The notes beneath the pieces were generated by a model that made no database searches, had not been told where the DNA came from, and saw only the letters and a list, made by a program, of their open reading frames with translations. The position numbers were made by a program, and so were the translations under genes. From Alphaproteobacteria bacterium HGW-Alphaproteobacteria-7 (GTDB lineage Bacteria > Pseudomonadota > Alphaproteobacteria > Sphingomonadales > Sphingomonadaceae), in NCBI GenBank assembly GCA_002842735.1, contig PHEB01000015.1, positions 1-64,000 on the forward strand: DNA of 64,000 bases. Direction: 5' to 3'. Below are positions 23,618-49,732 of the stretch, in pieces. Position 1 is the stretch's first letter. Every line of letters starts with the position of its first letter.

Positions 23618-24898
23618 TCAGTCCGGCGACAGCCCGCGCCCATCAAACCGGGCAACGGCGTGCGCAACCACCTTGTCCAGCGCCTCACCGGAGAAAAAGC
23701 CCCCCGGGATCAGGCAGTGATCAATCAGCACCCGGCGAAAGGCAGCGAAGGTTTCGCCATCGGGCGGGGTAGCCTCAGTCCAGAAATGGTCGAGCCCGTT
23801 CTGGCAGGTGAGGTCAGGCAAGTCGTAAATCGCCGTGCCCAGCACCACCACCGGAACGCCCATGGCGAGCGCCAAGGTTCCGCTGGTGCTGTTGATCGTG
23901 GCCATCCCCAGCGCGCGTTCGGAAATCGTTTCGATATCACCCCACGCCAAGTAATCTACCCGATCGGCAACCCCGAATCGCTCGGCAAGGTCGCTGGTTT
24001 CAAGCTCCCAGTTGCGCACTCCGTTATCGAGGGGGTGCTCTTTCACCACCAATCGGGTATGGGTTGGCGCGTGTTTGGCAAAGGATTCGAGCACGACTTT
24101 CAGCGCCTCCTTGACCCCGGCGAATGGGGAATGGAGGCGGATCTGTGCGTCTGAATCGAGCTGCAATGGAAACAGGAAATAGGCCTCATCCCGATCCAGC
24201 AGGCGCGCAATCAAGGCTGCGGCCTGTTCGCGCCGTTCTTTGCTGCGGCTGAGCTTGCGCGCCCAGCCCATGCCCTCGACCAGCGGATGCCACGGACGGT
24301 GGGTGTGCCAGCCCGGATAACGCCAGCGGGTCAGCACATCGGCAACGTTGTAAAAAAACCCCTCGCTGGCGCGCCTGCGAAAAGAAGACGGCACCTTCCG
24401 GTGTTCAGGCGCAGGTGGCAGTGCGGCGGCGCGGTCGCGGTAAAATTGCGGGTCACGCGGCAGTGAACTGTGGCCGTTGACCCCGCCGAGCTCCATCGTC
24501 ACCCAGTCAGGCCGGACATAGCCTTCCTCGAACACCCAGGCAGACACACCGTGTTCCCTGCAGACCTTGAGTGCGGCAATATGGTGATCGCGGCAGTCGC
24601 CAAACAGCATGACATCGGTGATCTGGTGGCGTGCCAGCAGATCGGCGAAAGCATCAGGCCATTCGGCAAGGGTTCCGCGATAGTCGATCCCGTTCGGCAG
24701 CCGCCAGTAGGCCCGGTCACCGCCGTTGAAATTGACCTTGAACACCGTGTGCCCGGCCTTGCGCAGACCTTGCCCAAGCTGACGGAAGAACGGGCCCATC
24801 AAGCCTTGAAGCAGCATCACACGGCGCGGAGTTCCCGCAGATGCGGGGCGATGTGCCGAAAGCGGATCGGGTTCAGCAGCCATTACCAGATCGAACAC
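23618..24898 (-). CDS. kpsS: Capsule Kdo-linker glycosyltransferase KpsS
   Basis: A 426-residue protein of the KpsS (capsule synthesis/LipB) family. KpsS adds the first beta-Kdo to lyso-phosphatidylglycerol at the inner face of the cytoplasmic membrane, starting the linker of ABC-exported capsules. Family text includes L-L-Q-G-L-M-G-P-F-F near the N-terminus, F-E-E-G-Y-V-R-P-D-W, F-P-L-Q-L-D-S-D-A-Q-I, V-V-K-E-H-P-L-D and I-N-S-T-S-G-T-L-A-L-A. The frame starts with GTG at 24898; an ATG lies five codons in. It is the first gene of the Kdo-linker group and is unlinked in strand from kpsC. Confidence 0.92.
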   Translation of the reverse strand: MFDLVMAAEPDPLSAHRPASAGTPRRVMLLQGLMGPFFRQLGQGLRKAGHTVFKVNFNGGDRAYWRLPNGIDYRGTLAEWPDAFADLLARHQITDVMLFGDCRDHHIAALKVCREHGVSAWVFEEGYVRPDWVTMELGGVNGHSSLPRDPQFYRDRAAALPPAPEHRKVPSSFRRRASEGFFYNVADVLTRWRYPGWHTHRPWHPLVEGMGWARKLSRSKERREQAAALIARLLDRDEAYFLFPLQLDSDAQIRLHSPFAGVKEALKVVLESFAKHAPTHTRLVVKEHPLDNGVRNWELETSDLAERFGVADRVDYLAWGDIETISERALGMATINSTSGTLALAMGVPVVVLGTAIYDLPDLTCQNGLDHFWTEATPPDGETFAAFRRVLIDHCLIPGGFFSGEALDKVVAHAVARFDGRGLSPD

Positions 24899-31536: not shown

Positions 31537-33114
31537 ATGGAGCCAGAACCTATTCTCGCCATCCCGCCGTTCCCCGGCGCACGGGCACCGCGTTTCGCCA
31601 CGCCCGGCGGTGAGGGGATTGGCGATCCGGCAGAGCTACTGGCCGCGCTGGCAAGCCACCGCGTAGGGGGCTGTTACTGGGGCGTTCAGACATCCTTTCC
31701 GCCGCGCGGCTTCGTGCTGGATGGCACAGTGGCCCCGCTGCCGGGTGCGCTCCAATGGGATCCGGAGGCTGATCCCTGGCCTTTGCTTGACGCCGCTGAT
31801 GGTGTCCGCCTGCCAGACGGGGACCCGCGCGCGCTGCTCGCTTTGGCGGCCGCCCTGCCGCTGACGCTGGTCGATCACGATGGCGGTGATCGCGATGCAG
31901 GCCAAGACGATGCAGCGCATCTGCTCGCACAGCACCTTACCGGCTGGCATTGGCAGAACCCCTTCGACGGTCGCAGCCTGTCGGTGCTTGATGCTATTGC
32001 CCTGTGCGGGTTCTGGCGGCAGTTGATCGACGCCAATCGGCGGATCCATTCGGTGCTGGGGATTGCCCATTGGAAGAAGCCCACCGTCACACCGCTTTTA
32101 TGGGCAGGCGCGCCGGTGCCTTATGGCCGCGCACTTGCCACCATGCCGAACGATGCGGCGGTTGCGATCTGGCGCACCCGGCTGCCCAAGGCCCAAACGC
32201 GCGCCATCGCCGCCACGCGTGCGCCCATCATCGAAATCGAGGATGGGTTCATTCGTTCCGCCGGGCTGGGCGCGGATTGCGTGCCGCCGCTGTCGATCAT
32301 CGTCGATGAAGAAGGCCCCCACTTTGCTCCCGGCGCGCCAAGCGGCATTGAACGATTGCTGCAAGACGGCGCGTTTCCACCTGATCTTGTGGCCCGCGCG
32401 CGCGCGCTGCGCGAAGCGATCGTCGCGGGCGGTTTGTCCAAGTACGAAACGGGGGCCACCGCGCCCCTGCCGCGCCCCGGCGGGGATCGCCGCCACGTTC
32501 TGGTGCCGGGGCAGGTCGAAGATGATCGCGCGGTGACCAGCGGTGGGGCGCTGCCTTCAAACCTTGAACTGTTGCGCCGGGCGCGGGCCGAAGCGGGGGC
32601 TGATGCCTACCTGATCTACAAACCCCATCCCGATGTGCTGGCCGGCCACCGCCGCGGGCTGATCGCCGATCACGATATGGCCGCGCTTGCTGACCGTGTG
32701 GAAACAAGCAGCCCGATGGCTGCGCTGATCGCGATGGTTGACGAACTGCACGTCAACAGCTCGCTCGCCGGGTTCGAGGCGCTGATGCGGGGCAAGCGAG
32801 TGACGGTTCATGGCGTGCCGTTCTACGCGGGCTGGGGCTTGACCATCGACAAGGGGCCAGTCCCGCCCCGGCGCACAGCGAAACGCACGCTGGATGAATT
32901 GGTGGCTGCGGCGTTGCTGCTTTACCCGCGCTATTTCGATCCGGTGACCGGCCTGCCATGCCCTGCGGAAGTGGTGGTGGAGCGGTTGGCGAGGGGCGAC
33001 GTGCCGCATTCCGACCTGACCATGTCGGCGCTGGTGGTTGGCAGGCGATTGCAGGGTCGGGTGCGATCCACGCTTGACCGCTGGCTGGGATCGAAGGCCA
33101 TCGGCGGCGGCTGA
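31537..33114 (+). CDS. kpsC: Capsule Kdo transferase KpsC, single-module form
   Basis: A 525-residue protein that extends the poly-Kdo linker of ABC-exported capsules. One full catalytic module is visible: E-D-G-F-I-R-S (235-241), S-K-Y-E (301), V-P-G-Q-V-E-D-D (323-330), Y-K-P-H-P-D-V (361-367), N-S-S-L-A-G-F-E-A-L (407-416) and F-Y-A-G-W-G-L-T. Typical KpsC is about 670-700 residues with two such modules. Here the first 110 residues are weakly conserved and residues 138-185 (N-P-F-D-G-R ... A-N-R-R-I) look like the inter-module start, so the N-terminal transferase seems missing. ATG at 31537 follows the kdsA stop directly. Confidence 0.88.
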   Translation: MEPEPILAIPPFPGARAPRFATPGGEGIGDPAELLAALASHRVGGCYWGVQTSFPPRGFVLDGTVAPLPGALQWDPEADPWPLLDAADGVRLPDGDPRALLALAAALPLTLVDHDGGDRDAGQDDAAHLLAQHLTGWHWQNPFDGRSLSVLDAIALCGFWRQLIDANRRIHSVLGIAHWKKPTVTPLLWAGAPVPYGRALATMPNDAAVAIWRTRLPKAQTRAIAATRAPIIEIEDGFIRSAGLGADCVPPLSIIVDEEGPHFAPGAPSGIERLLQDGAFPPDLVARARALREAIVAGGLSKYETGATAPLPRPGGDRRHVLVPGQVEDDRAVTSGGALPSNLELLRRARAEAGADAYLIYKPHPDVLAGHRRGLIADHDMAALADRVETSSPMAALIAMVDELHVNSSLAGFEALMRGKRVTVHGVPFYAGWGLTIDKGPVPPRRTAKRTLDELVAAALLLYPRYFDPVTGLPCPAEVVVERLARGDVPHSDLTMSALVVGRRLQGRVRSTLDRWLGSKAIGGG

Positions 33115-34731: not shown

Positions 34732-35832
34732 TTAACGCGCGGCAGAGCGATAAACCTCGATGGTCTCTGAGATACACTTGTCCCACGAGTATGTGTCGGC
34801 AACCGCCCGCCCGGCGGTGGAGGCAGCGCAACGCCAGCTTGCATCTTCAAGTGCTTCCAATAGCCCATTGGCAAAGGCATCCAGGTCATCAGGCTGAACT
34901 ATTCGCGCGGCACCCTTCGCTACTTCCGAAAGGCACGCTGCGTCTCCGATCAGGCATGGCGCACCTTGTGCCATTGCCTCCAATACGGGAAGCCCGAAAC
35001 CTTCGTAGCGCGATGGATATACAAACAGCGCGGCACCGGCATAAAGCGCGCCAAGGGTTGGCTCGTCGACGAAGCCGAGTAGCCGGACTGTCCCGTCTGT
35101 GGCGGCAGCTTCTATTTCAGTCATCAGAGCATCGTTTCTCCATCCGCTTGCACCGGCAAGTACGAGTGGGAAACGTGCGCGGATGGCTGGCGCTAGCGCT
35201 GCGTAGGCCCGAACCAGTTCTGCGATCCGCTTGCGCGGCTCGAATGTGCTCACACACAAGATGTAGCCATCAAGGCGAAGGTCTAAACCCTGCAAGCGCG
35301 CGAGATCGGGCTTCAGCCCTGCTGTCGATGCGGCCAGCGGCACCGCCAGAACCCTGTCTGGGCGCACACCAAACATAGCGATCAATTCCTGCCGCACAGT
35401 CTCGGTGTCGGTAATCAGCTTCGTGGCCCTGGCGAGCGTTCTCTCAAACCCTTGCTCGAACGCCCTCACCCGTTCGGCTGGGTGCGTTTCAGGAAAGAGA
35501 AATACCGAAAGATCGTGGATAGTCGCTACGCCGCGCTCTGCCCATTCGGGGAGAAAATAATTGGGGCTATGCACGATGGTGCCTTGCAACTTGCGGCGGC
35601 GCTGCCAATTCTCATACTGGCGGCGCCAAACTGCCCGCCGCTCTGGGCGCCAATTGTCCTGTAGCAGCGCTTGAGGGTCATCTAACCAGTGGTCGCCCCT
35701 GAAATAGCTGATATTTGACGCGCCCATCCTGACCGGAAGTCGCTCGGTAAGTTGCAGGCAATATCGGCCAATCCCTGTCAGCCGCGGCCCCAATGCATCG
35801 ACTGACAGTGCCACCGTCAGCGCGTCAGGCAT
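34732..35832 (-). CDS. GT4 glycosyltransferase
   Basis: A 366-residue GT-B enzyme. The N-terminal S-V-D-A-L-G-P-R-L-T-G-I-G-R-Y marks the acceptor-side domain used in alphaproteobacterial surface polysaccharide clusters, and the C-terminal half has V-S-T-F-E-P-R-K-R, L-L-G-F-V-D-E-P and Y-P-S-R-Y-E-G-F-G-L-P-V-L-E-A-M-A-Q-G, the retaining donor motif. It resembles WbaZ/mannosyl-type transferases, so a GDP-sugar donor is plausible. The ATG at 35832 overlaps the rmd stop by eight bases, so it is coupled to rmd and gmd. Confidence 0.9.
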   Translation of the reverse strand: MPDALTVALSVDALGPRLTGIGRYCLQLTERLPVRMGASNISYFRGDHWLDDPQALLQDNWRPERRAVWRRQYENWQRRRKLQGTIVHSPNYFLPEWAERGVATIHDLSVFLFPETHPAERVRAFEQGFERTLARATKLITDTETVRQELIAMFGVRPDRVLAVPLAASTAGLKPDLARLQGLDLRLDGYILCVSTFEPRKRIAELVRAYAALAPAIRARFPLVLAGASGWRNDALMTEIEAAATDGTVRLLGFVDEPTLGALYAGAALFVYPSRYEGFGLPVLEAMAQGAPCLIGDAACLSEVAKGAARIVQPDDLDAFANGLLEALEDASWRCAASTAGRAVADTYSWDKCISETIEVYRSAAR

Positions 35833-36727
35833 CCAGCATCCAGCCAATCGTTTCTTCAAGGGTTGGCATGGCGAGTGCACCAATCACGCTTTCCAGCCGG
35901 GCACGGCTGCCGCACAGGCTTTTGACCTCGTCCGCCCGAACAAACGCCGGGTTCACTTGCACCTCCATGTGGTGGCCTGAGAGCCGCTCAACCATTTCGA
36001 TGACTTCAGCGAGCGAGCGCGCTTGACCCGAGCAGACATTGAACAATCCGCCGATCGCACCCTGCGCGTTCAGCAGCCGAGCATAGCTATCGACAACCGC
36101 GCGCACATCGGAGAAATCGCGGGCCACATCAATATTGCCAAGCTCGATAACCGCCTTGCGCTGCTTGGCATGGGCGATGATTTTGGGGATAATGAATTGC
36201 TCGCCTTGACCTAACCCAGTGTAATTAAACGGTCGCACCGTGATAATCGGCAGGCGATCTGCATAAAGCCGGGCGAGCATTTCACAGGTGAGCTTGGTGA
36301 TGCCGTAATCATTGGCCGGCTCTGGAGGAAGGCTTTCATCCAGCACCCCATCACGGCGGTTGCCATAGACATTGGCGCTGCTCGCCACCAACACGGCCTG
36401 CGGCTGCCGAGAAGCGCTTGCAAGCGCGTGCAACAGGTTCCGTGTGCCAAGGATGTTGCTGCTGTAAAGTTCAGCGGCATCGCCATGCGCGACAAAGGCA
36501 ATCGCGGCGAGATGAACCACCTTATCCGGTTGCACGTCCTCGACCATGCGGGCAACGGCGCTCAGGTCACGCAGATCAGCGACATGAGCCCTGTGCAACA
36601 GCGACGGCGCTTCGTCGCTCGCGTGATGCACCACCCCGTGCAGTTCATGGCCGTCGCGCGCCAACCGCTCCAAGAGATGCCGGCCTGTGAAGCCACCCGC
36701 GCCAGTTACAAGAACCCGTGCCACCAC
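35825..36727 (-). CDS. rmd: GDP-6-deoxy-D-mannose reductase-like SDR (Rmd)
   Basis: A 300-residue extended SDR with V-T-G-A-G-G-F-T-G-R-H at the N-terminus, V-H-L-A-A-I-A-F near residue 72, S-S-A-N-V-Y-G (Ser) and Y-G-I-T-K (Tyr, Lys). Its closest kind is Rmd, which reduces the 4-keto product of Gmd to GDP-D-rhamnose. It begins five bases after the gmd stop, which supports the pairing. GDP-L-fucose synthase is less likely because that family has a different epimerisation Cys/His set. The stereochemistry of the product cannot be proved from sequence. Confidence 0.87.
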   Translation of the reverse strand: MVARVLVTGAGGFTGRHLLERLARDGHELHGVVHHASDEAPSLLHRAHVADLRDLSAVARMVEDVQPDKVVHLAAIAFVAHGDAAELYSSNILGTRNLLHALASASRQPQAVLVASSANVYGNRRDGVLDESLPPEPANDYGITKLTCEMLARLYADRLPIITVRPFNYTGLGQGEQFIIPKIIAHAKQRKAVIELGNIDVARDFSDVRAVVDSYARLLNAQGAIGGLFNVCSGQARSLAEVIEMVERLSGHHMEVQVNPAFVRADEVKSLCGSRARLESVIGALAMPTLEETIGWMLDA

Positions 36728-36732
36728 GCGCC

Positions 36733-38882
<2,150 letters not shown>

Positions 38883-38932: not shown

Positions 38933-41900
38933 CTAATTTATCATCCGAATAATATTATCAAACTGTTTGGGATTTGACCTTCTTGTTCTGATCAATTCAT
39001 CGCTTATACAAAAAGCTAGAACCCCATGTATTTGCATCTTGGCTTTGATTAATAAAATGGCTGCAGTTTGATCGCTTGCTTTATCCAGCAGAATCAACTG
39101 ATCACCATTCCACGCCTCTACCTCACCATCCTCTGCCCAATCGTCGACAATATCCAGCAAGTAGCAAGCCAATTTTCTAGCCGTGACAAGCCCAGTCGAC
39201 GCACTGTTGACGACGACCGGCTCAACATGAACGTTAGGCGGCGGGGAAAGCAACAGGTGCCGCACAAAAGCGCCCCTTGGATCCGCTTGGGCCGTTGACG
39301 TATCCATTTCCGCAAGGGCCGAACAATCGACCAGCCATTGCTGGCGGCGCGGTTTTGGAGGGAAATTGCGCGAAATCGATTGGGCGATAGCGACTGCGTC
39401 AGCTGGCGCAAGTTGCGGCGCCAAGGCTGGCAACCGCTCCAGCAAACCCGGCAAGCCGCCCTGCGTCTTGTTATAGCTTGCCTCGATGATTGTAACGTAG
39501 TCATCGGCACACTTCCGGGGGTCATGGTGTGTCAGCAATCTCGCTCGGCCAGATTGGCCTAGTGTTTCCCGCAGCTTCGCGTCACGATGAAGGCGCTCCA
39601 ATGCGCCAATCAGTTCATCATCAGAGAACTCATCTGGCAGTTTGATCACGCAGTCATCGGGCAATTCTGCCAGCGCGCCGTGTGCGTTGACTATGGTTGC
39701 CAAGCCGGCGTTCCAGCAATCGAGCACGGCTGCTGACGTTTCTCCGCGTGATTTGGTGCGCAGCTGTGTGGCTGCGTCGGCTGCGAACAACCACCGCTCA
39801 TAATCGGCTTGGTCGACAAAGCCGGTGATGCGAATGCGTCCCCCGGCCCGCTCTATGCGCCGCGCTATCCCTTCTCCAAAAGGCCCGCCTTCATTCTGAC
39901 CAACAAACACAAGCTGGCAATCAGGCTGACGCGCCAGTTCCGAATTGAGCCATGCGTCCAGCAGGCGATCATTCAGCTTCGTACGAGCCAAATGGCCGAA
40001 GGCGCAGACAAGGAAATCGTTTGCGCCAATGCCCAGCGCTTCCCTCGCCTGCCGCCGAAGCCGGGACTTTCCGCCGTCAGGCGGAAATGCCTTTGCCCTG
40101 CGCAACAGGGGCAAATGTGACCATTCCCCGGTCGCTGGATCACCATGCCATGTTTTGGCAAGGTCAACTCCATGCCGGGAATGGAAGATAACCCCCAGTG
40201 CGTCCCGAAACACGTCGCCATTGCAGGGATAGGCCCAAACCACGTCCGCAGAATCACTTGCTTGAAACCGTTCTTGCCCGGCACGCCACCCGTGATCGGT
40301 CAACAAAGTCTTACCCCAAAGGCCTGGCTTTGCTCCGGTAAGATCAAGGTGCGCGACGATTCCAGACAGAAAGAAATCATGCAAAACAACAATGCCCGGC
40401 ATGTCGCGCAGCAAATCGAACATGTGTGAATGAAAATGTGAATTACCGAAATGATACATCACGCGGTCGAACGCGCGGTAGTTCCGCCTGAACCATTCGA
40501 CATTGCGCAGCGGGGCATTTGCAGACACCCACGTGTCAGACAACGGTTCGTCTTGGCACACGATCACATCAATATCGTAATGTCGTGAAAGTTCGGGCAG
40601 CAATTCGGCGCTGTAATCGGCGATACCGCTGCGGGCACCGGGCAACGGCGACAAATAGGCCAATTTCGGCCGACGTGCTGACGGCTGTGGGGTCTGCTTC
40701 GGCGTTGCAGACTGTTCGCGGCGCGCGACCATCTGCTCCACTGCCTGCCACGCCGCCTGAGCCGATTGTTCCCACGAAAACTTGCGGGCTTGTTTCGCGG
40801 CATGACGTGTCAGCATCTTGCGAAACGGATCGTCGGTCAGGCCTTTTTTCATAAGCGCGGAAATCGCATGATCGTCACGCGGGTCAAACATCGCCTTGTC
40901 CAGGCCGATCACTTCAGGCAGGCTCGATGTATTGGCACCAATCGTCGGACGTCCGCAGGCCATTGCCTCTAACGCAGGCAAGCCGAACCCTTCGTGCCAC
41001 GATGGAAACACGAACAAGGTGCAAGCATTATAAAGCGATAGCAGATCATCTTCCGGCACAAAGCCGGTCATAACCAGCTGCTGATCGGAAAGGCCTGCAT
41101 CGCGGGCGATCCCTTCGAGACGCTGTTGGTCGGCTTCATGTGCGGCGCACACGATCGCTAACTGATGGCGATCCCGCACCGCCTTTGGCAGCAGGCCGAA
41201 GGCTCTTATCAATCCTTCGATGTTTTTACGGTGATCAATCCCGCCCGTATACATGACGTAGGGCTTGTTCAGACCATACGTAGTTTCCAGTGTTTTGCGG
41301 CGCGCGTTGGTTACGCGAACAGGTTTGAATTCTGCATTGCAGGCGGTGCTGATATTAACGACCTGCTCCGCCGGAAAGCCAAGGTGATCGACAGCCTCCC
41401 GTCCTGACGAAGCGGAGATCGACAAGAGCATGTCCGCGCGGCGCAGATGATCAAGCTTGCGATGATACCACCGCGACACAGGCGGGTTGCTAAGATAGAT
41501 ATCTTTATAAATTAACGGTATCAGATCATAAAGAATAACGGCTTTGGGAACCGTCGTTTCGAATTGGCCAATGGATGTAACGGCATCATCGATGAGTCCC
41601 TCAAACAGCGAGGTGACGAGAACGGCGCTTGGCCGCAGGCTGGCCAGAAATGCTTCGTAAATGATTTCAGTGGCTATGCGGCGTTGATCATTGGCAGGAT
41701 CAACCGCCGAACACGGAACTGCGGGCGACCAAACATGGATGGCATCGGTTGGAAGCAGATCGGAAAATTCAGCCTTGATCGGCTCAATAGTATCGGCAAA
41801 CGCACCATTTAGAACAAGCAGCACTTCGTGGTCTGCACTTTGCCGCACAATTTCCTTGACCAGCGCCAAGGTGTATCGCCCGATGCCGCGATGACGGCTG

Positions 41901-41941
41901 CCGCTGGACTGCGCCCCCTGCATATCAATGATAAGCCGCAT
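38933..41941 (-). CDS. Double GT4 glycosyltransferase with truncated third domain
   Basis: A 1002-residue protein with two complete GT-B modules. Module 1 (about 1-420) begins R-L-I-I-D-M-Q-G-A-Q and R-G-I-G-R-Y and has P-S-W-H-E-G-F-G-L-P-A-L-E-A-M. Module 2 (about 440-830) begins L-A-Y-L-S-P-L-P-G-A-R-S-G-I-A-D-Y and ends near H-D-P-R. Residues about 866-1002 look like the first half of a third module (W-L-V-D-C-S-A-L ... G-D-Q-L-I-L-L-D) that stops short. Modular transferases of this kind add two or more sugars of the repeat unit. The ATG at 41941 lies five bases from the previous stop and is probably coupled. See findings for the truncated end. Confidence 0.9.
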   Translation of the reverse strand: MRLIIDMQGAQSSGSRHRGIGRYTLALVKEIVRQSADHEVLLVLNGAFADTIEPIKAEFSDLLPTDAIHVWSPAVPCSAVDPANDQRRIATEIIYEAFLASLRPSAVLVTSLFEGLIDDAVTSIGQFETTVPKAVILYDLIPLIYKDIYLSNPPVSRWYHRKLDHLRRADMLLSISASSGREAVDHLGFPAEQVVNISTACNAEFKPVRVTNARRKTLETTYGLNKPYVMYTGGIDHRKNIEGLIRAFGLLPKAVRDRHQLAIVCAAHEADQQRLEGIARDAGLSDQQLVMTGFVPEDDLLSLYNACTLFVFPSWHEGFGLPALEAMACGRPTIGANTSSLPEVIGLDKAMFDPRDDHAISALMKKGLTDDPFRKMLTRHAAKQARKFSWEQSAQAAWQAVEQMVARREQSATPKQTPQPSARRPKLAYLSPLPGARSGIADYSAELLPELSRHYDIDVIVCQDEPLSDTWVSANAPLRNVEWFRRNYRAFDRVMYHFGNSHFHSHMFDLLRDMPGIVVLHDFFLSGIVAHLDLTGAKPGLWGKTLLTDHGWRAGQERFQASDSADVVWAYPCNGDVFRDALGVIFHSRHGVDLAKTWHGDPATGEWSHLPLLRRAKAFPPDGGKSRLRRQAREALGIGANDFLVCAFGHLARTKLNDRLLDAWLNSELARQPDCQLVFVGQNEGGPFGEGIARRIERAGGRIRITGFVDQADYERWLFAADAATQLRTKSRGETSAAVLDCWNAGLATIVNAHGALAELPDDCVIKLPDEFSDDELIGALERLHRDAKLRETLGQSGRARLLTHHDPRKCADDYVTIIEASYNKTQGGLPGLLERLPALAPQLAPADAVAIAQSISRNFPPKPRRQQWLVDCSALAEMDTSTAQADPRGAFVRHLLLSPPPNVHVEPVVVNSASTGLVTARKLACYLLDIVDDWAEDGEVEAWNGDQLILLDKASDQTAAILLIKAKMQIHGVLAFCISDELIRTRRSNPKQFDNIIRMIN

Positions 41942-41945
41942 TGTG

Positions 41946-44105
41946 TCAGAGCCTTTCATAGCTGCGCATAAGCCGCCGATATATCTGGCCTGATGCCGCG
42001 GGCAGTTCAGCGCCAGGATCAATCGGTTCGGGGGTGTTTTCAGGATTCTGTCGGGGCGTATTCGCAGGCGCTGCGACCGGCGGCTCCGTCGGCGGCGCGG
42101 TTGTGCGTTCAGCGATCACTTCGGTGCGCGCTGCAATCTGCCTCACCGCGCGCGCCAATTCCGCCTGTCCACCACTCATCCGGCCGATCTCATTGGCAAG
42201 AACCCGCAAGTGGCGGTGGGTGGCGTGGTTGCCTTCGGCGCCGGTGATCAGGCGCACCAGCACGCCCACCAGCGGCAATGTCGCCCAGCGGTGCCGCTTG
42301 ATCGCGCGGTCCAGCCCCGCGACGCCGGGAATAAACGCGCGCCCTTCCGGTGAGCGGCGCAGCTGCCTCAGGATCGCCAGCTTGTGCGCCCCTGCGCGCA
42401 GGCGGTTGAGGTAATACACCTCGCCCTCGTGATCAGGCGCGCGGCCCAGCACGGATTGGTAGGCGGCATGAATGAACTCGCGGTCATGCGGAGCCAGCAG
42501 GCGCGGCACAGATGTAATCGGCTCGTCGCTTTCGGTCATCTCGAAGTTCCCGTATTGGAAGGCGGCATCTGCAACCGGCGGGTTACCGGGATGAGACAAA
42601 TTGCCCCCCCGGTCCGGCAGCGGCGCGGTCGGCACCACGGCCTCGCGCTGGAATTGCCGGATTGCCGTGGCGTGCTCGGCCAAGGCCACAAGCGCGGCGC
42701 GCGGCGCAAGCCACCGGACAAGTGTAGCGCGAACACGCGGTAATTTAACAAAAAAATCAGGCGAGGCCACCAGCAATTCTGTGGCACGCCGCAACTGCTC
42801 CTCGCGCCAGGCGATATGGCCGTTCAACCGATCTATCTCGGCCTGCAAGCGGCCGTGCTGATCCGCGGTTTCGCGTTGCGATGATGCGAGGTTTTCGGCG
42901 AGGCTATCGCGCTGTGCTGTTGCTTCTGCGAGTTGCTGCGCCAACATCGCTTGAACGCCAGTCAGTTTGGCGATTTCGTCCGTGGCACTGCTAAGCTCGG
43001 CACTGTGCAAGGCCCGATCAGCCGCCGCATCGGAACGCGCCGTGTGCAATTCTTCTTCCGCACGCTCAAGCTGTCGCTCAATATGCTCGCGAAGGACTGC
43101 GGCGTCAGCAATGCGTTCGGTGTGAGCTTGCGCCATGGTGACAAGCCGGCCTTGGAGGTGGCCAACTTCGCGCAGCACTTTTCCGTGATCCTGCCGCAAG
43201 GCGTCGAGCGCGGCGGTCGCGTCGGCCAGCTGTTGCTTGACCTTGCCCAGTGCGGCCTCATTTTCGGTAAGTTGGTTCTGCGCCTCTTCACACTCTGACG
43301 CGAGGCGAGCTTTCTCGGCGTTGTCCGCCGCCTCTATTGCATCGATACGCGCAAGCAATTCTGTACGAACTTCGGCAATCGCCTCGTCTTTTTCGGCGCA
43401 AACCTGCCCTGCTGAAAAGTGAGTGTCCGAGACTTGAAAGCCGTCAAAGACATTGGGGCATTCCGCGATTCTATCACGCAGATGCTCATGGCTTTCGTGG
43501 ACGAAGAACCGGCTTAGCCCGTCGAAAGCAACGTCATGATAACCGCGCGCAAGCACCATCGCGTGCCACGCGGTGTGGGTCGGTGTTTGTGTGTTTGGTG
43601 CTGTTGCTTCGATGACCAGCACAGCCGGGCGAGCGGGATGATCGCCCCAGCTAGCGATGACATCGGCTTCCATTCCTTCAACGTCAATTTTGAGCCAATG
43701 GATTGGTTCTGGCCCAAAAGACTCAAACACGCCTGCAAGAGTCACTGTCGGGACCAGAATTTCCCGGCAAAGCCAACCTGCATCCGAGTGCCGTTGCGCG
43801 ATATCGGCTATGCCGGTTGAAAGCCCGGTTGTTGGTATTTCGAAAAATCTGATGGGGCCGGGCGCGGTCGCTATAGCCGCTTCGATAACCACTTCATCGG
43901 GACGACCATTGCGCAAGGCTGCCGCATAAGCAGGCGTTGGTTCAACGTGCAATCCGCGCCATCCGCGCTGATAAAAGGCTAGGCTAACCGAATCTCTTAT
44001 TGGGTCTTGGCCGCCGACATCAATATATCGTCCAGCCTCAATGTCACAAAAGGCGCGCCACAGGCGTACATCCTCATAGTTTTGTGAATAGCTGACAAAG
44101 GTCAT
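41946..44105 (-). CDS. FkbM methyltransferase-coiled coil-DUF4214 fusion
   Basis: A 719-residue protein in three parts. Residues 1-225 are an FkbM-type SAM methyltransferase (Y-S-Q-N-Y-E-D-V-R-L-W, Y-I-D-V-G-G-Q-D-P, W-L-K-I-D-V-E-G-M-E). Residues about 230-450 are one long charged coiled coil of heptads rich in Glu, Ala and Arg. Residues about 540-610 are a DUF4214-like domain (A-A-Y-Q-S-V-L-G-R-A-P-D-H-E-G-E-V-Y-Y-L), followed by a hydrophobic segment (L-P-L-V-G-V-L-V-R-L-I) and a Pro-rich tail. It overlaps both neighbours in the kpsT-side operon. It may methylate the end of the capsule chain. No close named homologue is known to me. Confidence 0.85.
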   Translation of the reverse strand: MTFVSYSQNYEDVRLWRAFCDIEAGRYIDVGGQDPIRDSVSLAFYQRGWRGLHVEPTPAYAAALRNGRPDEVVIEAAIATAPGPIRFFEIPTTGLSTGIADIAQRHSDAGWLCREILVPTVTLAGVFESFGPEPIHWLKIDVEGMEADVIASWGDHPARPAVLVIEATAPNTQTPTHTAWHAMVLARGYHDVAFDGLSRFFVHESHEHLRDRIAECPNVFDGFQVSDTHFSAGQVCAEKDEAIAEVRTELLARIDAIEAADNAEKARLASECEEAQNQLTENEAALGKVKQQLADATAALDALRQDHGKVLREVGHLQGRLVTMAQAHTERIADAAVLREHIERQLERAEEELHTARSDAAADRALHSAELSSATDEIAKLTGVQAMLAQQLAEATAQRDSLAENLASSQRETADQHGRLQAEIDRLNGHIAWREEQLRRATELLVASPDFFVKLPRVRATLVRWLAPRAALVALAEHATAIRQFQREAVVPTAPLPDRGGNLSHPGNPPVADAAFQYGNFEMTESDEPITSVPRLLAPHDREFIHAAYQSVLGRAPDHEGEVYYLNRLRAGAHKLAILRQLRRSPEGRAFIPGVAGLDRAIKRHRWATLPLVGVLVRLITGAEGNHATHRHLRVLANEIGRMSGGQAELARAVRQIAARTEVIAERTTAPPTEPPVAAPANTPRQNPENTPEPIDPGAELPAASGQIYRRLMRSYERL

Positions 44106-45382
44106 CTGCGTCCGCCGTCTCGGATCAGTGCAGTTTCGATACCCAGCCGATTTACAAGTGCAAGTGCGCTGTCGCTCCAGCGTGGAAGGCCGTCGGTGCT
44201 TAACGGCACTGTCCGACCGGTGCTACCCAGCCAGGTTTCAATAGAATTGGCGAGGGAGCGAGGGCTGTCATCACTAAAATAGTGGAATACGCCTTCCCCG
44301 ATCTCGCGGAAAACGGGCAAGTCGCGTGCGAGAACCGGAGTGCCATGAGCCTGCGCTTCTACCAGCGGCAGGCCGAAGCCTTCGCCATAAGAGGCAGCGA
44401 TCAGCCCACTGGCCTGCGCATATACTTCTGCCAGCAATTCATCACTTGCCGCATCAAGCCAGCGCAGCCTCTTGCCATGTTCAGGGTGGAGCCTCAATTC
44501 CTCCTGTAAATCCTCGGTTTTCCACCCAGGTTTGCCAACGATTAGAAGGGCCAAGTTATTTCCCGGCTGTGACCGCCAGAGCTCTGTCATTGCCCTTAAA
44601 ACACAGCGATGGCCTTTGCGCGGTTCGATAGTTCCAACTGACAAGATGACGCGGTGCTGCTCCATCCAGCTGCGCAAGGCTGTAATCTCTGGAGGCAGAC
44701 CAATGGTGGGAAAACTCGCGGCTATATCAACGCCCAAGGGAATGGTCGTTATCTCAGGCAGGGCGCGTACGCCCCGTTTCGACAACTCGGCTGCCAGCGC
44801 CTGTCCCACAGATTGAGAGATACATATGCATTGGTCCGCCTGGCGAGCGATTAACCCTATCCACCGCGTGAAGTTGCGAACGGTGCTCGGTACGAACCAG
44901 TCGGGCCGGTTCAGCGGAAGTAGATCATAGACCATGAAGTTGATCGCGACGCCTTGGCGTCGCCATGATTCGATTTCCCATTCGTTAAGGGGCGCAATAT
45001 TGGCCGCGAGATCAAGTCCCAGGAAAATATCGCCGGGGCGAGGCCGCACACGCTGTCGGGATTTTGCTGTAGCACCTGCCGTCTCTATGGCTCCATCGCT
45101 GGACAGGTGCGCGCGGCAATAGCCGTGATCACGTGTCGCAAAAACCGGAAGGACGATAAATCCTGGCAGCGACATGCTGGAAAGCTGGCCAAGCAGTGCG
45201 CGCACAACACGCTGTATCCCCGTGCGCGCATCATTCTGCATAATCACTGAGACATCCACCAAAAGCTGCCTGGAGCTTTGGACAGGCAAAACTTCAAAAT
45301 CAAACCTGCGCGACATCCAAAGCCGCCGCAAGACACCTTGCACGGTGCGGAACATGGGCGACGACATGCGCTGCACACTCAC
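44102..45382 (-). CDS. GT4 glycosyltransferase (capsule operon)
   Basis: A 426-residue GT-B enzyme. The N-terminus carries L-L-V-D-V-S-V-I and T-G-I-Q-R-V-V-R, the acceptor-domain signature shared with the third, cut domain of the large transferase; the donor half has V-G-T-I-E-P-R-K-G-H and A-S-Y-G-E-G-F-G-L-P-L-V-E-A-Q-A-H-G. It overlaps the FkbM gene start and the kpsT stop by four bases on each side (ATGA), so the operon is tightly coupled. Its sugar is unknown. Confidence 0.9.
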   Translation of the reverse strand: MSVQRMSSPMFRTVQGVLRRLWMSRRFDFEVLPVQSSRQLLVDVSVIMQNDARTGIQRVVRALLGQLSSMSLPGFIVLPVFATRDHGYCRAHLSSDGAIETAGATAKSRQRVRPRPGDIFLGLDLAANIAPLNEWEIESWRRQGVAINFMVYDLLPLNRPDWFVPSTVRNFTRWIGLIARQADQCICISQSVGQALAAELSKRGVRALPEITTIPLGVDIAASFPTIGLPPEITALRSWMEQHRVILSVGTIEPRKGHRCVLRAMTELWRSQPGNNLALLIVGKPGWKTEDLQEELRLHPEHGKRLRWLDAASDELLAEVYAQASGLIAASYGEGFGLPLVEAQAHGTPVLARDLPVFREIGEGVFHYFSDDSPRSLANSIETWLGSTGRTVPLSTDGLPRWSDSALALVNRLGIETALIRDGGRR

Positions 45383-46032
45383 GCCATTTCTTTGGTGTAG
45401 AAATCATAGGCAGCATCGAGTGAAGCGAATTGTTTGAGTTTTCCGTCAATTAACACAGCCGCGCGATCACAGTGGGCGCGCACAAACCCCGGGTCGTGCG
45501 ACACAATAATGCGCGCCTTGTCAGCACGTTTGACAAACAGTTCTTCGTGGCACTTGGCCTGAAACCGGCTATCGCCAACCGCGACAATCTCATCAATGAG
45601 GTAGCAATCAAAATCGACCACCATTGACGTTGCAAAGGCCAACCTTGCGCGCATCCCGGAGGAGTAAGTCCGCACGGGCTCTTTCAGATATACCCCAAGT
45701 TCGGTAAAATCTTCGACAAATGGCAGCCAGGCTTCCGGATCAACACCATAAACCCGGCAGATAAAACGCAAATTATCAAGGCCGGTCAACGTGCTCTGAA
45801 AGCCGCCCGAAAAAGCAAGTGGCCAGGAAACGCTCATGGTCCTTTCCACAACTCCGCTGTCGGGCATTTCTGCTCCGCTCACGATCCGTATCAGTGTCGA
45901 TTTCCCCGCACCATTGCGCCCGACAATGCCGATAGCTTCCCCGCGCTGCAGAACCATATTCACACCATCAAGCACTTTGACGGGCCCCGATGATGTCGCG
46001 TAGGATTTGTTGACTTGGGCAAGACGTATCAT
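45379..46032 (-). CDS. kpsT: Capsule ABC transporter ATPase KpsT
   Basis: A 217-residue ABC ATPase that powers capsule export with KpsM. Walker A is G-R-N-G-A-G-K-S-T, the signature is Y-S-S-G-M-R-A-R-L-A-F-A, Walker B is C-Y-L-I-D-E-I-V-A-V-G-D and the switch His is S-H-D. The family-specific region after Walker A (V-S-W-P-L-A-F-S-G-G-F-Q) identifies polysaccharide exporters. The start is ATG at 46032, overlapping the kpsM stop (ATGA); the longer upstream frame is not needed. No C-terminal carbohydrate-binding domain is present, unlike O-antigen Wzt, so chain-end recognition must be done elsewhere. Confidence 0.96.
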   Translation of the reverse strand: MIRLAQVNKSYATSSGPVKVLDGVNMVLQRGEAIGIVGRNGAGKSTLIRIVSGAEMPDSGVVERTMSVSWPLAFSGGFQSTLTGLDNLRFICRVYGVDPEAWLPFVEDFTELGVYLKEPVRTYSSGMRARLAFATSMVVDFDCYLIDEIVAVGDSRFQAKCHEELFVKRADKARIIVSHDPGFVRAHCDRAAVLIDGKLKQFASLDAAYDFYTKEMA

Positions 46033-46817
46033 TCCGGTCGCACCTCCCCGGAAATCGCGCGAACTCTCAGCAAGCCGGCGATGGTCAGACCGGCATTCCA
46101 CGCGGCCATGTATGCAAGATCATATCGCGCATTGATGCTGGAGCCGAAATATCCTTCACGCAAAAATTCCACCCCGTGCACCATGGGGAAAAGCAAGATT
46201 GCCTCTTGAGCGGCAGGAGGAAGACTATCGACGAGGAATGCCGCGCCAGATAAGGGAAAAAGAATATAGGCAGCGGGATGCCAGAGCTTGTCGACCAACT
46301 CGCTTGACCACGAGAGCGCCCCAAGAAACAGCGCCAAACCAGCGCCGAACCAGGCGAGCATGAGCCACGCCGAAGCTACCTTAACGACATCCTCGGGCGG
46401 CCCCAACCACTCAACCCCCCAGAACAGAAGGACAAGCCCAACGAACGACATCGTTGTTCCCGCGACCTCAAGCACTAGCCGCGCCAGAAAGAGATCAATA
46501 ATCTTCACATTTCTGTGGTATAACAGCGGCAAATTGGGCTCGATGGCGGAGATGCATCGAGCGGGCATGTTGCGCCACAGGAGCACGCTCGAATAACCAG
46601 TGATTGCGAATGCAACGATTGGGATGGAGGAATACTGATCGAGTTTGGCAATAGACCAAAGCGCCGTAACGCCCAGTGTGAAGATCATCGGCTCAGCGAA
46701 CAGCCACAGAAACCCGATATTGTGCCGACCATAGCGCGTTAACACCTCACGCATCAGCAAAGCGCCGAGCACTCTGCGTTGGATCGTCCAGGATTCAGCA
46801 AACGAGCCTGCCATCAC
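46029..46817 (-). CDS. kpsM: Capsule ABC transporter permease KpsM
   Basis: A 262-residue ABC-2 type permease with six predicted helices. It begins with the amphipathic R-R-V-L-G-A-L-L-M-R-E-V-L-T-R-Y-G-R-H-N-I-G-F-L-W-L-F-A-E-P stretch that is typical of KpsM/Wzm. It forms the channel that passes the lipid-linked polysaccharide across the inner membrane. GTG at 46817 or ATG at 46814 may start; it lies one base from the kpsE stop. The next gene, kpsT, overlaps its stop. Confidence 0.94.
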   Translation of the reverse strand: MMAGSFAESWTIQRRVLGALLMREVLTRYGRHNIGFLWLFAEPMIFTLGVTALWSIAKLDQYSSIPIVAFAITGYSSVLLWRNMPARCISAIEPNLPLLYHRNVKIIDLFLARLVLEVAGTTMSFVGLVLLFWGVEWLGPPEDVVKVASAWLMLAWFGAGLALFLGALSWSSELVDKLWHPAAYILFPLSGAAFLVDSLPPAAQEAILLFPMVHGVEFLREGYFGSSINARYDLAYMAAWNAGLTIAGLLRVRAISGEVRPE

Positions 46818-46818
46818 G

Positions 46819-48033
46819 TCAATGCTTGTGTTCGCGCACGCCTGCGAGAAGCATGGTAAGAATGCCCCACGCGACCAGTCCGATAATCAGCGTGGCCAGA
46901 ACGTCGCGAAGCCTTCTTGGTTCGACCGCATCATCCGGAAGGCTGGGCTGGGAAACCCGCTCAACATAGGCCTGCTGACGGCGGGCCTCGTTGCGAGCGT
47001 CTTGCAGCGATGCCAGGGCCAGCCCCAATTGCTTGTCGGCGAATTCGCGCCTTAGCTGAAGTTCCTGATATTGTGCGGCTGCGGCTGACAACGAGCCTTC
47101 CGCGCCAGCGACCTGTCCAAATTGGTCTTTGATCGCCTGCTCCAAACCCTTGATGCGTACGCGCAGTATGGGGATTTGCGGGTTCGCCGGCGCGACGCTT
47201 GAAAGCTGCAGCAATTGCATTTTTGCGCCGATGAGCTCGTCCTGCAGCTTTGAGATCATCTGCAACTGCACCGCAGCTTGTCGCTCAGGGTCAATCACGC
47301 CCCGCGTGTTGCGGTACTTTGCAAGCGCCAGTGCTGCTGCCGAAGCCTGCGACTGCGCTTCTGTGACTTCGCGCTCGGCGTATTTGATGAGGTCGCCGCG
47401 CCCCCGCTCGTTCAGCTGGTTCACCAGAGTTTCGGCCTGATTAAGCAGGCGCTCATTCATCGTGAGCGAATCCTTTGGAGAAAACGCCCGAACGCTAAGC
47501 GTAGTGATACCAGTCTGACTGTCATATTCTACAGCGACCTTGGACTGGTAGTAATCAAACAGATCCTCAAACGAGCCGGAAAATCCCAAAGGATTAAATC
47601 GGTTGAAGATCGAAATGTTTTCTTTCCCCCATGCCGACTTGGCGAAACCGTCAGCATCAAGTGCTCGCAGTCCATCGCGCGATTCAATGTAACCTTTCGC
47701 CGCCTGTACTTCATCACCAGCGCTGGCAAATCCAGCACTATCCAGAAGCACGCCTATGCCGCTCTTCTGCGGCTTGTCGGGGCTGCGAACCACGAAGCGG
47801 CTCTCGGACATATAAACGTCCGACGCGAGCAGCCCAAAATAGACTGCGCTCAAAATGGTCGGAACCGCGACAGTGAGCAGGAACAACCGCCCCATTCCGC
47901 GAAGCTTGGCACTCAGCCATGCCAGCGGCTGCGGCAAATGAGACTTTGCCCCATTTGAAATGTGATTGTCCAATGGGACATCGCTCCCTTCAGGCGAAAG
48001 TATCTTCGCCGCAGGCGACCCGGTTTCTAACAT
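46819..48033 (-). CDS. kpsE: Capsule export inner-membrane protein KpsE
   Basis: An approximately 404-residue polysaccharide co-polymerase-like protein. It has a hydrophobic helix near residues 50-70, a periplasmic region that is coiled-coil and Gln/Ala-rich (A-E-R-E-V-T-E-A-Q-S-Q-A-S), and a C-terminal helix (L-I-I-G-L-V-A-W-G-I-L) with a short basic end. KpsE links KpsMT to the outer-membrane KpsD. ATG at 48033 is chosen because GGAG lies upstream; the frame also opens at 48099. It starts the kpsE-kpsM-kpsT-GT4-FkbM-GT operon, facing the kpsD-like gene across a 553-bp gap. Confidence 0.93.
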   Translation of the reverse strand: MLETGSPAAKILSPEGSDVPLDNHISNGAKSHLPQPLAWLSAKLRGMGRLFLLTVAVPTILSAVYFGLLASDVYMSESRFVVRSPDKPQKSGIGVLLDSAGFASAGDEVQAAKGYIESRDGLRALDADGFAKSAWGKENISIFNRFNPLGFSGSFEDLFDYYQSKVAVEYDSQTGITTLSVRAFSPKDSLTMNERLLNQAETLVNQLNERGRGDLIKYAEREVTEAQSQASAAALALAKYRNTRGVIDPERQAAVQLQMISKLQDELIGAKMQLLQLSSVAPANPQIPILRVRIKGLEQAIKDQFGQVAGAEGSLSAAAAQYQELQLRREFADKQLGLALASLQDARNEARRQQAYVERVSQPSLPDDAVEPRRLRDVLATLIIGLVAWGILTMLLAGVREHKH

Positions 48034-48586
48034 TATCTCATTGGCTCCGACATGTTTTAACGGGAACTTGTCAGCCTTGCCCCAAGCGCCACAAACCACG
48101 CCATATAATCAGTATATTGCCCCTGATTTGCCGCTACTGGCATGGACCTTTAAGGTCAAGCATCGTCAAGATAGATGCGTCTCACCTGCGATCATGTCGC
48201 GGTGCTGCGCCAACGGAAGTTCCCTACGCATCTCAAGAACATAGGCATTCCCTGCGCGATCGTATAATGCGACGGATGGTTCTGTGCGGAGGGTGGCGTG
48301 CGCTTGCGCTCAAGACTGTTGATGCTATTTTGCCCGGACTCTTTTCAGACCATGACACGCTGACAGTGGCCCGTTTCGTCGTCTTGTGGCGTTCTTTCCG
48401 GTGCACTTGCAACCTCTGGGATGGCGCACCTATGGGGGTTAAATACGGCGTGAGGCGTCTAATCCTCATGCTGAACAGGAGTTGCTTCGACGACTTTTGA
48501 CATGACTCCTTCGGAGTGCCAACAGTCGCGCGGTATTTCCGACCGCATCACGGAATCCTCCGTAATACCATCCGGATCCTTTTAGA
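48034..48586. other. Divergent capsule promoter region, no convincing gene
   Basis: This 553-bp gap lies between kpsE and the kpsD-like gene, so it must hold both capsule promoters. A frame of 193 codons (47919-48500, plus strand) crosses it but its residues are Cys/Arg/His-rich and match nothing I know. A small perfect hairpin (48505-48509 with 48513-48517) and A/T-rich patches near 48100-48120 are the only visible features. I cannot place promoters with confidence. Confidence 0.6.
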
Positions 48587-49732
48587 ATGACCCTTCCCCA
48601 CATAAGACACTTGATGATCCTTGTGAGCTTCGTTGCGCTGAGCGCATGTCAGGCCTTCGGGCCGGGCAGGGAGAACATATTGGCCGGAGGCTCCGTGCCT
48701 GCTCGATCAGGCGAAGCGCCAGTGCCCATCAAGATCATTCAGGTGGGCAGTGATCAAGCGCAGCCGTTGCCGACGGCGAGTGCTTTGCGTCCGTTTTATG
48801 ATGTCATCCCTGAGGCTTTGCCGGTCGGTACTACCGTGGATGTGGGCGATGCGCTGGAAGTCACGATCTGGGAGGCCCCGCCGGCAACCCTGTTTGGCGG
48901 GGCGGCGGCTGATACGAGGATCGCAACGGCCATCAGCACCGCAAGACCGACCATACTTCCGGAAATGCGGATTGGGCCAGACGGGACAATCTCGGTACCC
49001 TTTGCCGGAGCGATCCCGGCGCGCGGGCGAACCTTGCAAAGCATCGAGCGTGAGATCGTGGCGCGGCTGAAAGGGCGAGCGAATATGCCGCAGGCCCTGG
49101 TACGGCTGGTCGGCAATGAGACTGCGACGGTCACAGTCGTGGGAGAATTCGCGCAATCTGCCCGTTTTCCGCTGTCGCCTAGGGGAGAACGTCTGCTTGA
49201 TGCGATTGCAAAGGTCGGCGGGGTTAAGCCGCCCATCAATCTGACTACGATCCAGGTCACCAGAGATGGTGCAAGTTACCGTCTTCCGCTTTCACAGATA
49301 ATTGAGCAGGAAAGAAACAACATTATCCTTGCCCGGAATGATGTCATAACCGCGCTTTATCAGCCTTATAGCTTCACGGTTCTTGGTGCCGCAGGCCGGA
49401 ATGATGAATTCAAATTCGAGGCTTTTGGCATTTCACTTTCACAAGCTTTGGGCCGGGTTGGCGGCTTGCAGGATGGTCGCGCGAACCCACGCGGCGTGTT
49501 CCTGTTTCGCTGGATGGACCGATCCGATCCCGGTGCTCTACGCGATCCGGTAATCTACAACTTCGATTTCAAGGATCCGGCGGTTTATTTCATGGCGCAG
49601 CAGTTCCCAATGCAAGACGGCGATTTCATTTATGTCACCAACTCTCCGGTCGCCGAGTTGCAGCGTTTTGTTGGCATTGTTTCGCAAGCCATTTTGCCTG
49701 CTGCGACAGTGACGACAATCGTGCAGCAGTAA
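48587..49732 (+). CDS. Outer-membrane polysaccharide export lipoprotein (KpsD/Wza-like)
   Basis: A 381-residue OPX-family protein. The signal peptide ends in the lipobox L-S-A-C (Cys21), so it is lipidated. A Poly_export domain covers about 80-170 (V-D-V-G-D-A-L-E-V-T-I-W-E; G-T-I-S-V-P-F-A-G), followed by SLBB-type repeats (T-V-V-G-E-F; F-T-V-L-G-A-A-G) and the C-terminal G-D-F-I-Y-V-T-N-S-P-V-A. It forms the outer-membrane exit of the capsule. Although short compared with KpsD, its size is usual for alphaproteobacterial capsule loci. It is divergent from kpsE and followed by a GT4 gene. Confidence 0.94.
   Translation: MTLPHIRHLMILVSFVALSACQAFGPGRENILAGGSVPARSGEAPVPIKIIQVGSDQAQPLPTASALRPFYDVIPEALPVGTTVDVGDALEVTIWEAPPATLFGGAAADTRIATAISTARPTILPEMRIGPDGTISVPFAGAIPARGRTLQSIEREIVARLKGRANMPQALVRLVGNETATVTVVGEFAQSARFPLSPRGERLLDAIAKVGGVKPPINLTTIQVTRDGASYRLPLSQIIEQERNNIILARNDVITALYQPYSFTVLGAAGRNDEFKFEAFGISLSQALGRVGGLQDGRANPRGVFLFRWMDRSDPGALRDPVIYNFDFKDPAVYFMAQQFPMQDGDFIYVTNSPVAELQRFVGIVSQAILPAATVTTIVQQ

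Follow-up and report, generated by a model that had tools for sequence, protein, structure and literature searches.

What does a methyltransferase carried on a long coiled coil do in a capsule cluster whose transporter ATPase has no carbohydrate-binding domain (CBD)? The question is raised by a 719-residue protein, comprising an FkbM methyltransferase, a coiled-coil stalk and DUF4214, that is encoded on the minus strand at positions 41,946–44,105 of the window (the 64,000-nucleotide stretch of contig PHEB01000015.1 from Alphaproteobacteria bacterium HGW-Alphaproteobacteria-7 analyzed here). A sequence-only reading of this DNA had proposed that the protein adds a methyl cap to the end of the capsule chain and that its coil serves as a ruler of chain length. 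Our analysis suggests that the protein is a stalked enzyme of a capsule system lacking a CBD, and that it probably modifies the chain end.

Domain architecture and genomic setting of the stalked protein

A plus-strand reading of 41,946–44,105 was rejected, as that strand contains stops. The FkbM methyltransferase domain spans residues 29–189 (43,539–44,021, minus strand) and belongs to its family by both Pfam (PF05050, E 3.5e-22, 79.8 bits against a cut-off of 22.7) and NCBIfam (TIGR01444, over cut-off), so that the assignment of the head as a methyltransferase by family is well supported. Its DVEG motif, which we take to have a role in SAM binding, is invariant in all eight aligned rows. Near the opposite end lies a conserved DUF4214 module with a C-terminal extension (residues 527–645; 42,171–42,527, minus strand), containing a Pfam DUF4214 match at residues 539–587 (PF13946; 42,345–42,491; E 8.6e-9, 35.8 bits against a cut-off of 23.2), the sole such match of the whole genome, and a hydrophobic stretch at residues 607–624 (42,234–42,287, minus strand). 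Both termini are therefore as the sequence-only reading had described them. PDB sequence searches with the whole protein, the head profile, the base profile and the head of a relative discussed below (G892) returned no useful relative, the head profile matching no PDB chain at E 0.1 or better, and kinship of the protein with SMC proteins was rejected, the matches being weak and coil-driven only.

Between head and base, AlphaFold2 helices and coil scores together define a helical stalk at residues 232–446 (42,768–43,412, minus strand), within which a COILS-type score places a coiled coil at residues 251–421 (42,843–43,355, minus strand), in two segments of 251–318 and 323–421. The 167 coil residues scored within residues 231–450 compare with a mean of 33.5 and a maximum of 114 in 100 shuffles of that region, none of which scored as high, and a chance coil was rejected on this basis. 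The AlphaFold2 model, built from a 4-row alignment, is of low confidence (mean pLDDT 55.7, pTM 0.34); it places helices at 232–349 and 361–446, with pLDDT below 50 at residues 345–361 and again at 591–702, the latter covering part of the DUF4214 module. A long coil is thus predicted, and its absence, which would have told against the ruler proposal, was not what this check returned. The earlier description of about 220 residues of unbroken heptads holds in that the stalk is real, but not in its continuity: about 170 coil residues fall within about 215 helix residues, with a gap, register shifts and a weak spot near residue 350.

The gene lies among genes for a group 2 (kps) capsule. Its 5′ end overlaps an upstream GT4 glycosyltransferase gene (44,102–45,382, minus strand) by the four bases ATGA, as expected from the claim that it overlaps neighboring transferase genes, whereas downstream the claim hinges on the start codon chosen: a double GT4 glycosyltransferase, the polymerase by inference, is taken to begin at an ATG four bases beyond the FkbM-gene stop (38,933–41,941, minus strand), and an earlier in-frame ATG would give an overlap. 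The listed reading frame for this glycosyltransferase (38,933–42,022) starts at a TTG, the likelier start being the ATG at 41,941 or 41,959. Upstream of the first GT4 gene, also on the minus strand, are a KpsT-like ATPase, named by position (45,379–46,101), a KpsM-like permease (46,029–46,817; ABC2_membrane, NCBIfam KpsM model below cut-off) and a KpsE/BexC/CtrB-like protein (46,819–48,099; NCBIfam, below the model's cut-off), followed on the plus strand by a KpsD-like polysaccharide export protein with Poly_export and SLBB domains (48,587–49,732). Two Capsule_synth proteins (PF05159) are encoded at 31,537–33,114 on the plus strand (KpsC/KpsS type, start set by reading, no NCBIfam match) and at 23,618–24,898 on the minus strand (KpsS-like, NCBIfam KpsS model below cut-off), and the cluster also holds a phosphomannomutase-type enzyme, an SIS-CBS protein, several GT4 enzymes, and KdsA and KdsB, both assigned by reading only. 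With KpsM, KpsT, KpsE and KpsD, KpsC/KpsS-type enzymes and a Kdo supply, the cluster qualifies as group 2, several of its NCBIfam matches being below cut-off; relative to such capsules, the window adds a stalked modification enzyme. The KpsT-like ATPase (217–240 residues depending on the start) has an ABC_tran domain and no Wzt_C match, in agreement with the earlier statement that it lacks a CBD, and Wzt_C had no match in the whole genome at E 0.001. The genome has one Glycos_transf_4 gene, which we assumed to be MraY, and an undecaprenyl-linked O antigen with a WecA-type starter was rejected on that ground.

On the far side of the polymerase gene lie a second SAM methyltransferase with a C-terminal extension (37,812–38,882, minus strand; Pfam Methyltransf_11), a GDP-mannose 4,6-dehydratase (GMD; 36,733–37,767, minus strand; TIGR01472 over cut-off), an SDR enzyme (35,825–36,727, minus strand) and a GT4 glycosyltransferase (34,732–35,883, minus strand). 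No NCBIfam model names the SDR enzyme; we call it RMD-like from its position and the rmd label of a 55% identical plasmid gene. Because GMD and an RMD-like enzyme occur together, the cluster's gene content suggests a supply of GDP-D-rhamnose. The second methyltransferase gene is low in G+C (49%); part of its C-terminal extension recurs in an enzyme of G076 (L010 14,183–15,526) and to the eye resembles a beta-rich, perhaps glycan-binding domain.

Relatives, the operon slot and exchange of heads

Matches to the protein, partial ones included, were found in 6 of 199 genomes of the family (E 1e-10), 12 of 396 of the order (1e-20) and 12 of 385 of the class (1e-30); in two genera (1e-20) the counts were 3 of 24 and 8 of 71. 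These genome sets overlap, and the window's own genome is among them. Of 148 pattern stretches on genome contigs that were scanned with the DUF4214 module, four were confirmed, and two of these came from genomes already found. Among plasmid records, 16 matched the protein at E 1e-10, three from Sphingobium with the full protein and 13 others; one of the three Sphingobium plasmids and all 13 others were fetched, with only the best place kept for records that had two. The fetched Sphingobium plasmid (pTomTYG71b of Sphingobium sp. TomTYG71, L082, 60 kb) carries kps-type genes, gmd, rmd and a 596-residue FkbM–coil–DUF4214 protein annotated as hypothetical. In an Azospirillum thermophilum plasmid (L090), the FkbM domain heads a 1450-residue protein in which about 435 residues score as coil (237–672, threshold 0.3), adjoining a protein of almost 2000 residues annotated DUF4214. 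A relative of the head, 39% identical over 229 residues, is also encoded by Pseudomonas phage Y10 (OQ572411.1, 20,673–21,344).

Relatives share the gene order kpsE–kpsM–kpsT–GT4 followed by a slot, the place after kpsT and the GT4 gene, which was readable in 14 loci. As these loci were found through FkbM or DUF4214 searches, kps operons without both were invisible and the 14 are not a random sample. The same domain order near kpsT in other genomes, proposed earlier as a check, was found: the slot holds FkbM–coil–DUF4214 in six loci (the window, G020, L015, G334, G899 and G903). G892 has a different head there on a coil and DUF4214, G466 has FkbM and coil with no DUF4214, and the G916 protein is a divergent FkbM whose coil is weak and whose end is TPR-like. 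Separate FkbM and DUF4214 genes occupy the slot in G488, a non-FkbM methyltransferase with a separate DUF4214 and no coil in G076, and DUF4214 with no fused head in the remaining three (G386, G909 and G939). A long coil is therefore present in the slot of 8 of the 14 loci, weak in one and absent in five. Two carriers were left out of the 14: L013, whose contig begins inside the gene, and the Sphingobium plasmid, where the kps genes are about 10 kb away. The end of the 446-residue G466 frame looks by eye like out-of-frame sequence, and the TPR-like end that replaces DUF4214 in G916 (L079 9,483–11,195) is below the Pfam cut-off. Coils were also sought in open frames of at least 150 residues across the G488, G076, G386, G909, G939 and G916 stretches, where those of at least 40 residues occurred in the KpsE-like proteins of four stretches, in the tail of the G386 DUF4214 protein and in one G939 gene. 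In G909 an FkbM-type gene (236 residues, no coil) stands apart, about 3.4 kb from the slot.

Different heads appear on comparable stalks. The G892 slot frame, 1009 residues long, combines a head of about 360 residues lacking an FkbM match with a gapped coil (390–699) and a DUF4214 base. It is 42% identical to residues 304–718 of the window protein, which places the change of head inside the coil, and in a DUF4214 tree it groups with the window, L013 and G020 (support 95/94). Neither Pfam nor NCBIfam names the G892 head; motifs read by eye, which we take to be those of sulfotransferases, suggest that it is sulfotransferase-like. A Methylocystis plasmid protein (L083 8,839–10,497) whose head is 34% identical to that of G892 matches Sulfotransfer_3 at E 0.15, below cut-off; its coil consists of near-exact 28-residue tandem units, and its gene lies among transposase genes. 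In G939, about 4 kb past the lone DUF4214 gene, a 529-residue frame (L081 13,414–15,000) joins a Methyltransf_24 domain (E 2.9e-9) to a coil at 272–312 and 318–420, which favors heads exchangeable on coils. Three head types thus occur on coils in kps clusters of this kind: FkbM, the sulfotransferase-like G892 head and the G939 Methyltransf_24.

Variation in stalk length

The closest comparison is with L013, whose neighboring genes are 92–99% identical to those of the window. Its stalk is longer by exactly 49 residues, or seven heptads, inserted with the register kept between window residues 292 and 293 (43,229/43,230, minus strand), and similar short DNA stands at both insertion edges. In 4 of 11 stalks, tandem units (21, 28, 21 and 39 residues) scored higher than in any of 50 shuffles; the 39-residue unit is no multiple of seven. 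Four of the five length events are thus multiples of seven, for which a hand-worked probability by chance, chosen after the fact, is about 0.002. When the window is compared with L013, the coil (dN/dS 0.38) and DUF4214 (0.39) give similar values, and the polymerase gives 0.20. Between species, coils are 30–31% identical, compared with 68–73% for heads and 58–76% for bases; a coil diverging between a conserved head and base is as would be expected of a spacer.

Other observations sit less easily with a ruler. Stalk plus linker ranges from 239 to 404 residues in eight proteins, and when each is set against the window, only one of the seven length differences is divisible by seven, a count that linkers blur. 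Against 60 shuffles each, the coil score stood well above the shuffled value for L013 (215 versus 152), marginally above it for G020 (139 versus 138) and below it for L015 (150 versus 161). G488 has split genes and no long coil, with a head 62% and a base 42% identical to the window's; as it nests within the FkbM–coil–DUF4214 clade (5 rows, support 100/98), loss of the coil can leave head and base in place. The proposal that the coil is a chain-length ruler therefore gains from the seven-heptad difference to L013 and from three tandem units in multiples of seven, and loses from the variation in stalk length and from syntenic slots that have no long coil; we regard it as plausible, not established.

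Proposed chain-end modification and alternative readings

Coiled-coil chain termination offers the nearest precedent. The coil acts there as a ruler (PMC5082667, consulted in part), WbdD of E. coli O8 is methyltransferase-only, and in O9a termination is needed for export (both in the part of PMC3482155 consulted). According to the consulted part of another account (PMC11231755), a coiled-coil terminator with varied catalytic modules marks the ABC-transporter O-antigen strategy, and one ABC-exported capsule with no terminating residue is noted. WbdD of E. coli O8/O9a and K. pneumoniae O5/O3 and the window protein share an N-terminal methyltransferase, a long coil after it, a C-terminal non-catalytic base and a separate mannosyl-type polymerase; unlike WbdD, the window has an FkbM head with no kinase, a DUF4214 base, a kps transporter lacking a CBD, and a capsule rather than an O antigen. 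The head, compared by sequence only, is not a WbdD-family methyltransferase, and the partner transporter with a cap-reading domain is missing, Wzt_C occurring neither in KpsT nor in the genome; given these two differences in defining features we do not class the protein as WbdD-type, though it may work like such a terminator. The K. pneumoniae O4, O7 and O12 terminators (ORF7-O4, ORF6-O7 and WbbB) likewise set a modular head on a coil, sometimes fused to a glycosyltransferase (PMC11231755, in the part consulted), recalling the FkbM–GT4 fusions below, but differ in head chemistry and belong to O-antigen systems.

Although this is guilt by association, the neighbors of related heads are a more direct indication of chain-end methylation than the coil is. 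In 5 of the 13 non-Sphingobium plasmid loci (Peteryoungia, Azospirillum, Marivivens and two Rhizobium plasmids), the FkbM gene has a Wzt bearing Wzt_C as its direct neighbor or no more than 1 kb away, three recognized by Pfam, where the overlap with the FkbM gene is 1 to 4 bases, and two by BLAST similarity. The Wzt_C domain recognizes chain ends that carry a modification; in Aquifex this is a 3-O-methyl cap, borne by a D-rhamnose/mannose polymer (PMC9445017, as far as the part consulted goes). These loci resemble the window in their related head and nearby GMD, and differ in having the cap-reading Wzt, a short or no scored coil and no DUF4214 match in the FkbM protein itself. The FkbM tree joins nine heads from kps slots or Sphingobium plasmids in one set (support 100/99), nested in a larger set of 15 rows (95/89). 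The larger set also contains two FkbM–GT4 fusions and a Rhizobiaceae group of four, of which three lie near a CBD-type Wzt; outside it fall the heads of Azospirillum and Marivivens, which account for two of the five with a CBD link. Fusions to GT4 domains, with short scored coils, occur among heads of this family in G613, G717 and G848; G717 additionally encodes an ABC ATPase (236 residues) with no Wzt_C match. In the other 8 of the 13 plasmid loci no CBD-type Wzt was found in the fetched stretch, some showing no transporter at all and one (L092) an ABC ATPase of 258 residues lacking a CBD; these weigh against a cap. The proposed chain-end methyl cap thus draws support from the CBD-linked relatives, the GT4-fused heads and the exchange of heads in the slot, and is weakened by the eight.

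We tentatively propose, at distinctly less than an even chance for the whole, that the protein is a stalked chain-end modifier of a kps-type capsule that, once docked, caps only chains long enough to reach its head. The DUF4214 module would dock the protein at the membrane or the polymerase complex, and the coiled coil would hold the head about 25–32 nm away (residue counts multiplied by the rise of a straight helix). There the FkbM head would O-methylate the growing chain, which probably contains D-rhamnose, at its non-reducing end, and chains too short to reach the head would stay uncapped. Unlike in O9a, the cap would stop growth and not license export, because KpsMT is described as recognizing the glycolipid end (PMC12220298, in the part consulted). 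The parts of this proposal differ in strength. From the operon, it is likely that the head acts on the capsule chain; that it does so at the chain end we consider somewhat better than even, and that the stalk measures chain length remains clearly below even. A genome with no Wzt_C match, together with export described as recognizing the glycolipid end, leaves no reader for a cap, which counts against a cap measured by a ruler.

Several other explanations bear on these parts. The head may cap chain ends while the coil does no more than oligomerize the enzyme and hold it close to the polymerase, with length set by synthesis and export. The wide variation in stalk length, the coil-less G488 and the short or absent coils of FkbM proteins near a CBD-bearing Wzt all favor such a coil, but it accounts poorly for the long coil in 8 of 14 slots, for a coil about as constrained as DUF4214 between the window and L013, and for a 49-residue indel that preserves the register; we think this account unlikely, if worth keeping in view. 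We judge it equally unlikely that the head methylates an internal or primer sugar, with stalk and DUF4214 only scaffolding the glycosyltransferases. That would suit the heads fused to GT4 domains with short scored coils, a kps export described with no cap (PMC12220298, in the part consulted) and the eight plasmid relatives whose stretches have no CBD-type Wzt, yet five loci stand near a Wzt with a domain known to read the chain end.

Quite improbable, in our estimate, is that the cap is the work of the second methyltransferase (37,812–38,882), the FkbM protein having some other role. It sits in the same operon and is conserved in L013 and G892, with another methyltransferase at the equivalent place in L015; against it, G020 and G488 have the FkbM gene and polymerase and GMD genes no more than 30 bases apart, and BLAST found no relative of the second enzyme in either stretch.

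Returning to the stalked chain-end modifier, we found no open-access paper on FkbM together with a coiled coil, capsule and ABC transporter, none on DUF4214 with methyltransferase and polysaccharide, and none on FkbM with Wzt, O-antigen and methyltransferase; a 2025 kps review (PMC12220298), in the part consulted, contains none of the words ruler, WbdD and methyl. Extending the proposal beyond the window is more tentative still: some Alphaproteobacterial kps capsules could be length-controlled by a DUF4214 and coil ruler with exchangeable heads (FkbM, another methyltransferase or sulfotransferase-like), their chains being ended with no cap-reading transporter. The natural variants in stalk length, the coil-less variants and the exchanged heads provide a ready comparison set that makes the question of capsule chain length testable. 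If the proposal is true, coil-based termination would extend from O antigens to capsules, and capping would be separated from cap-dependent export.
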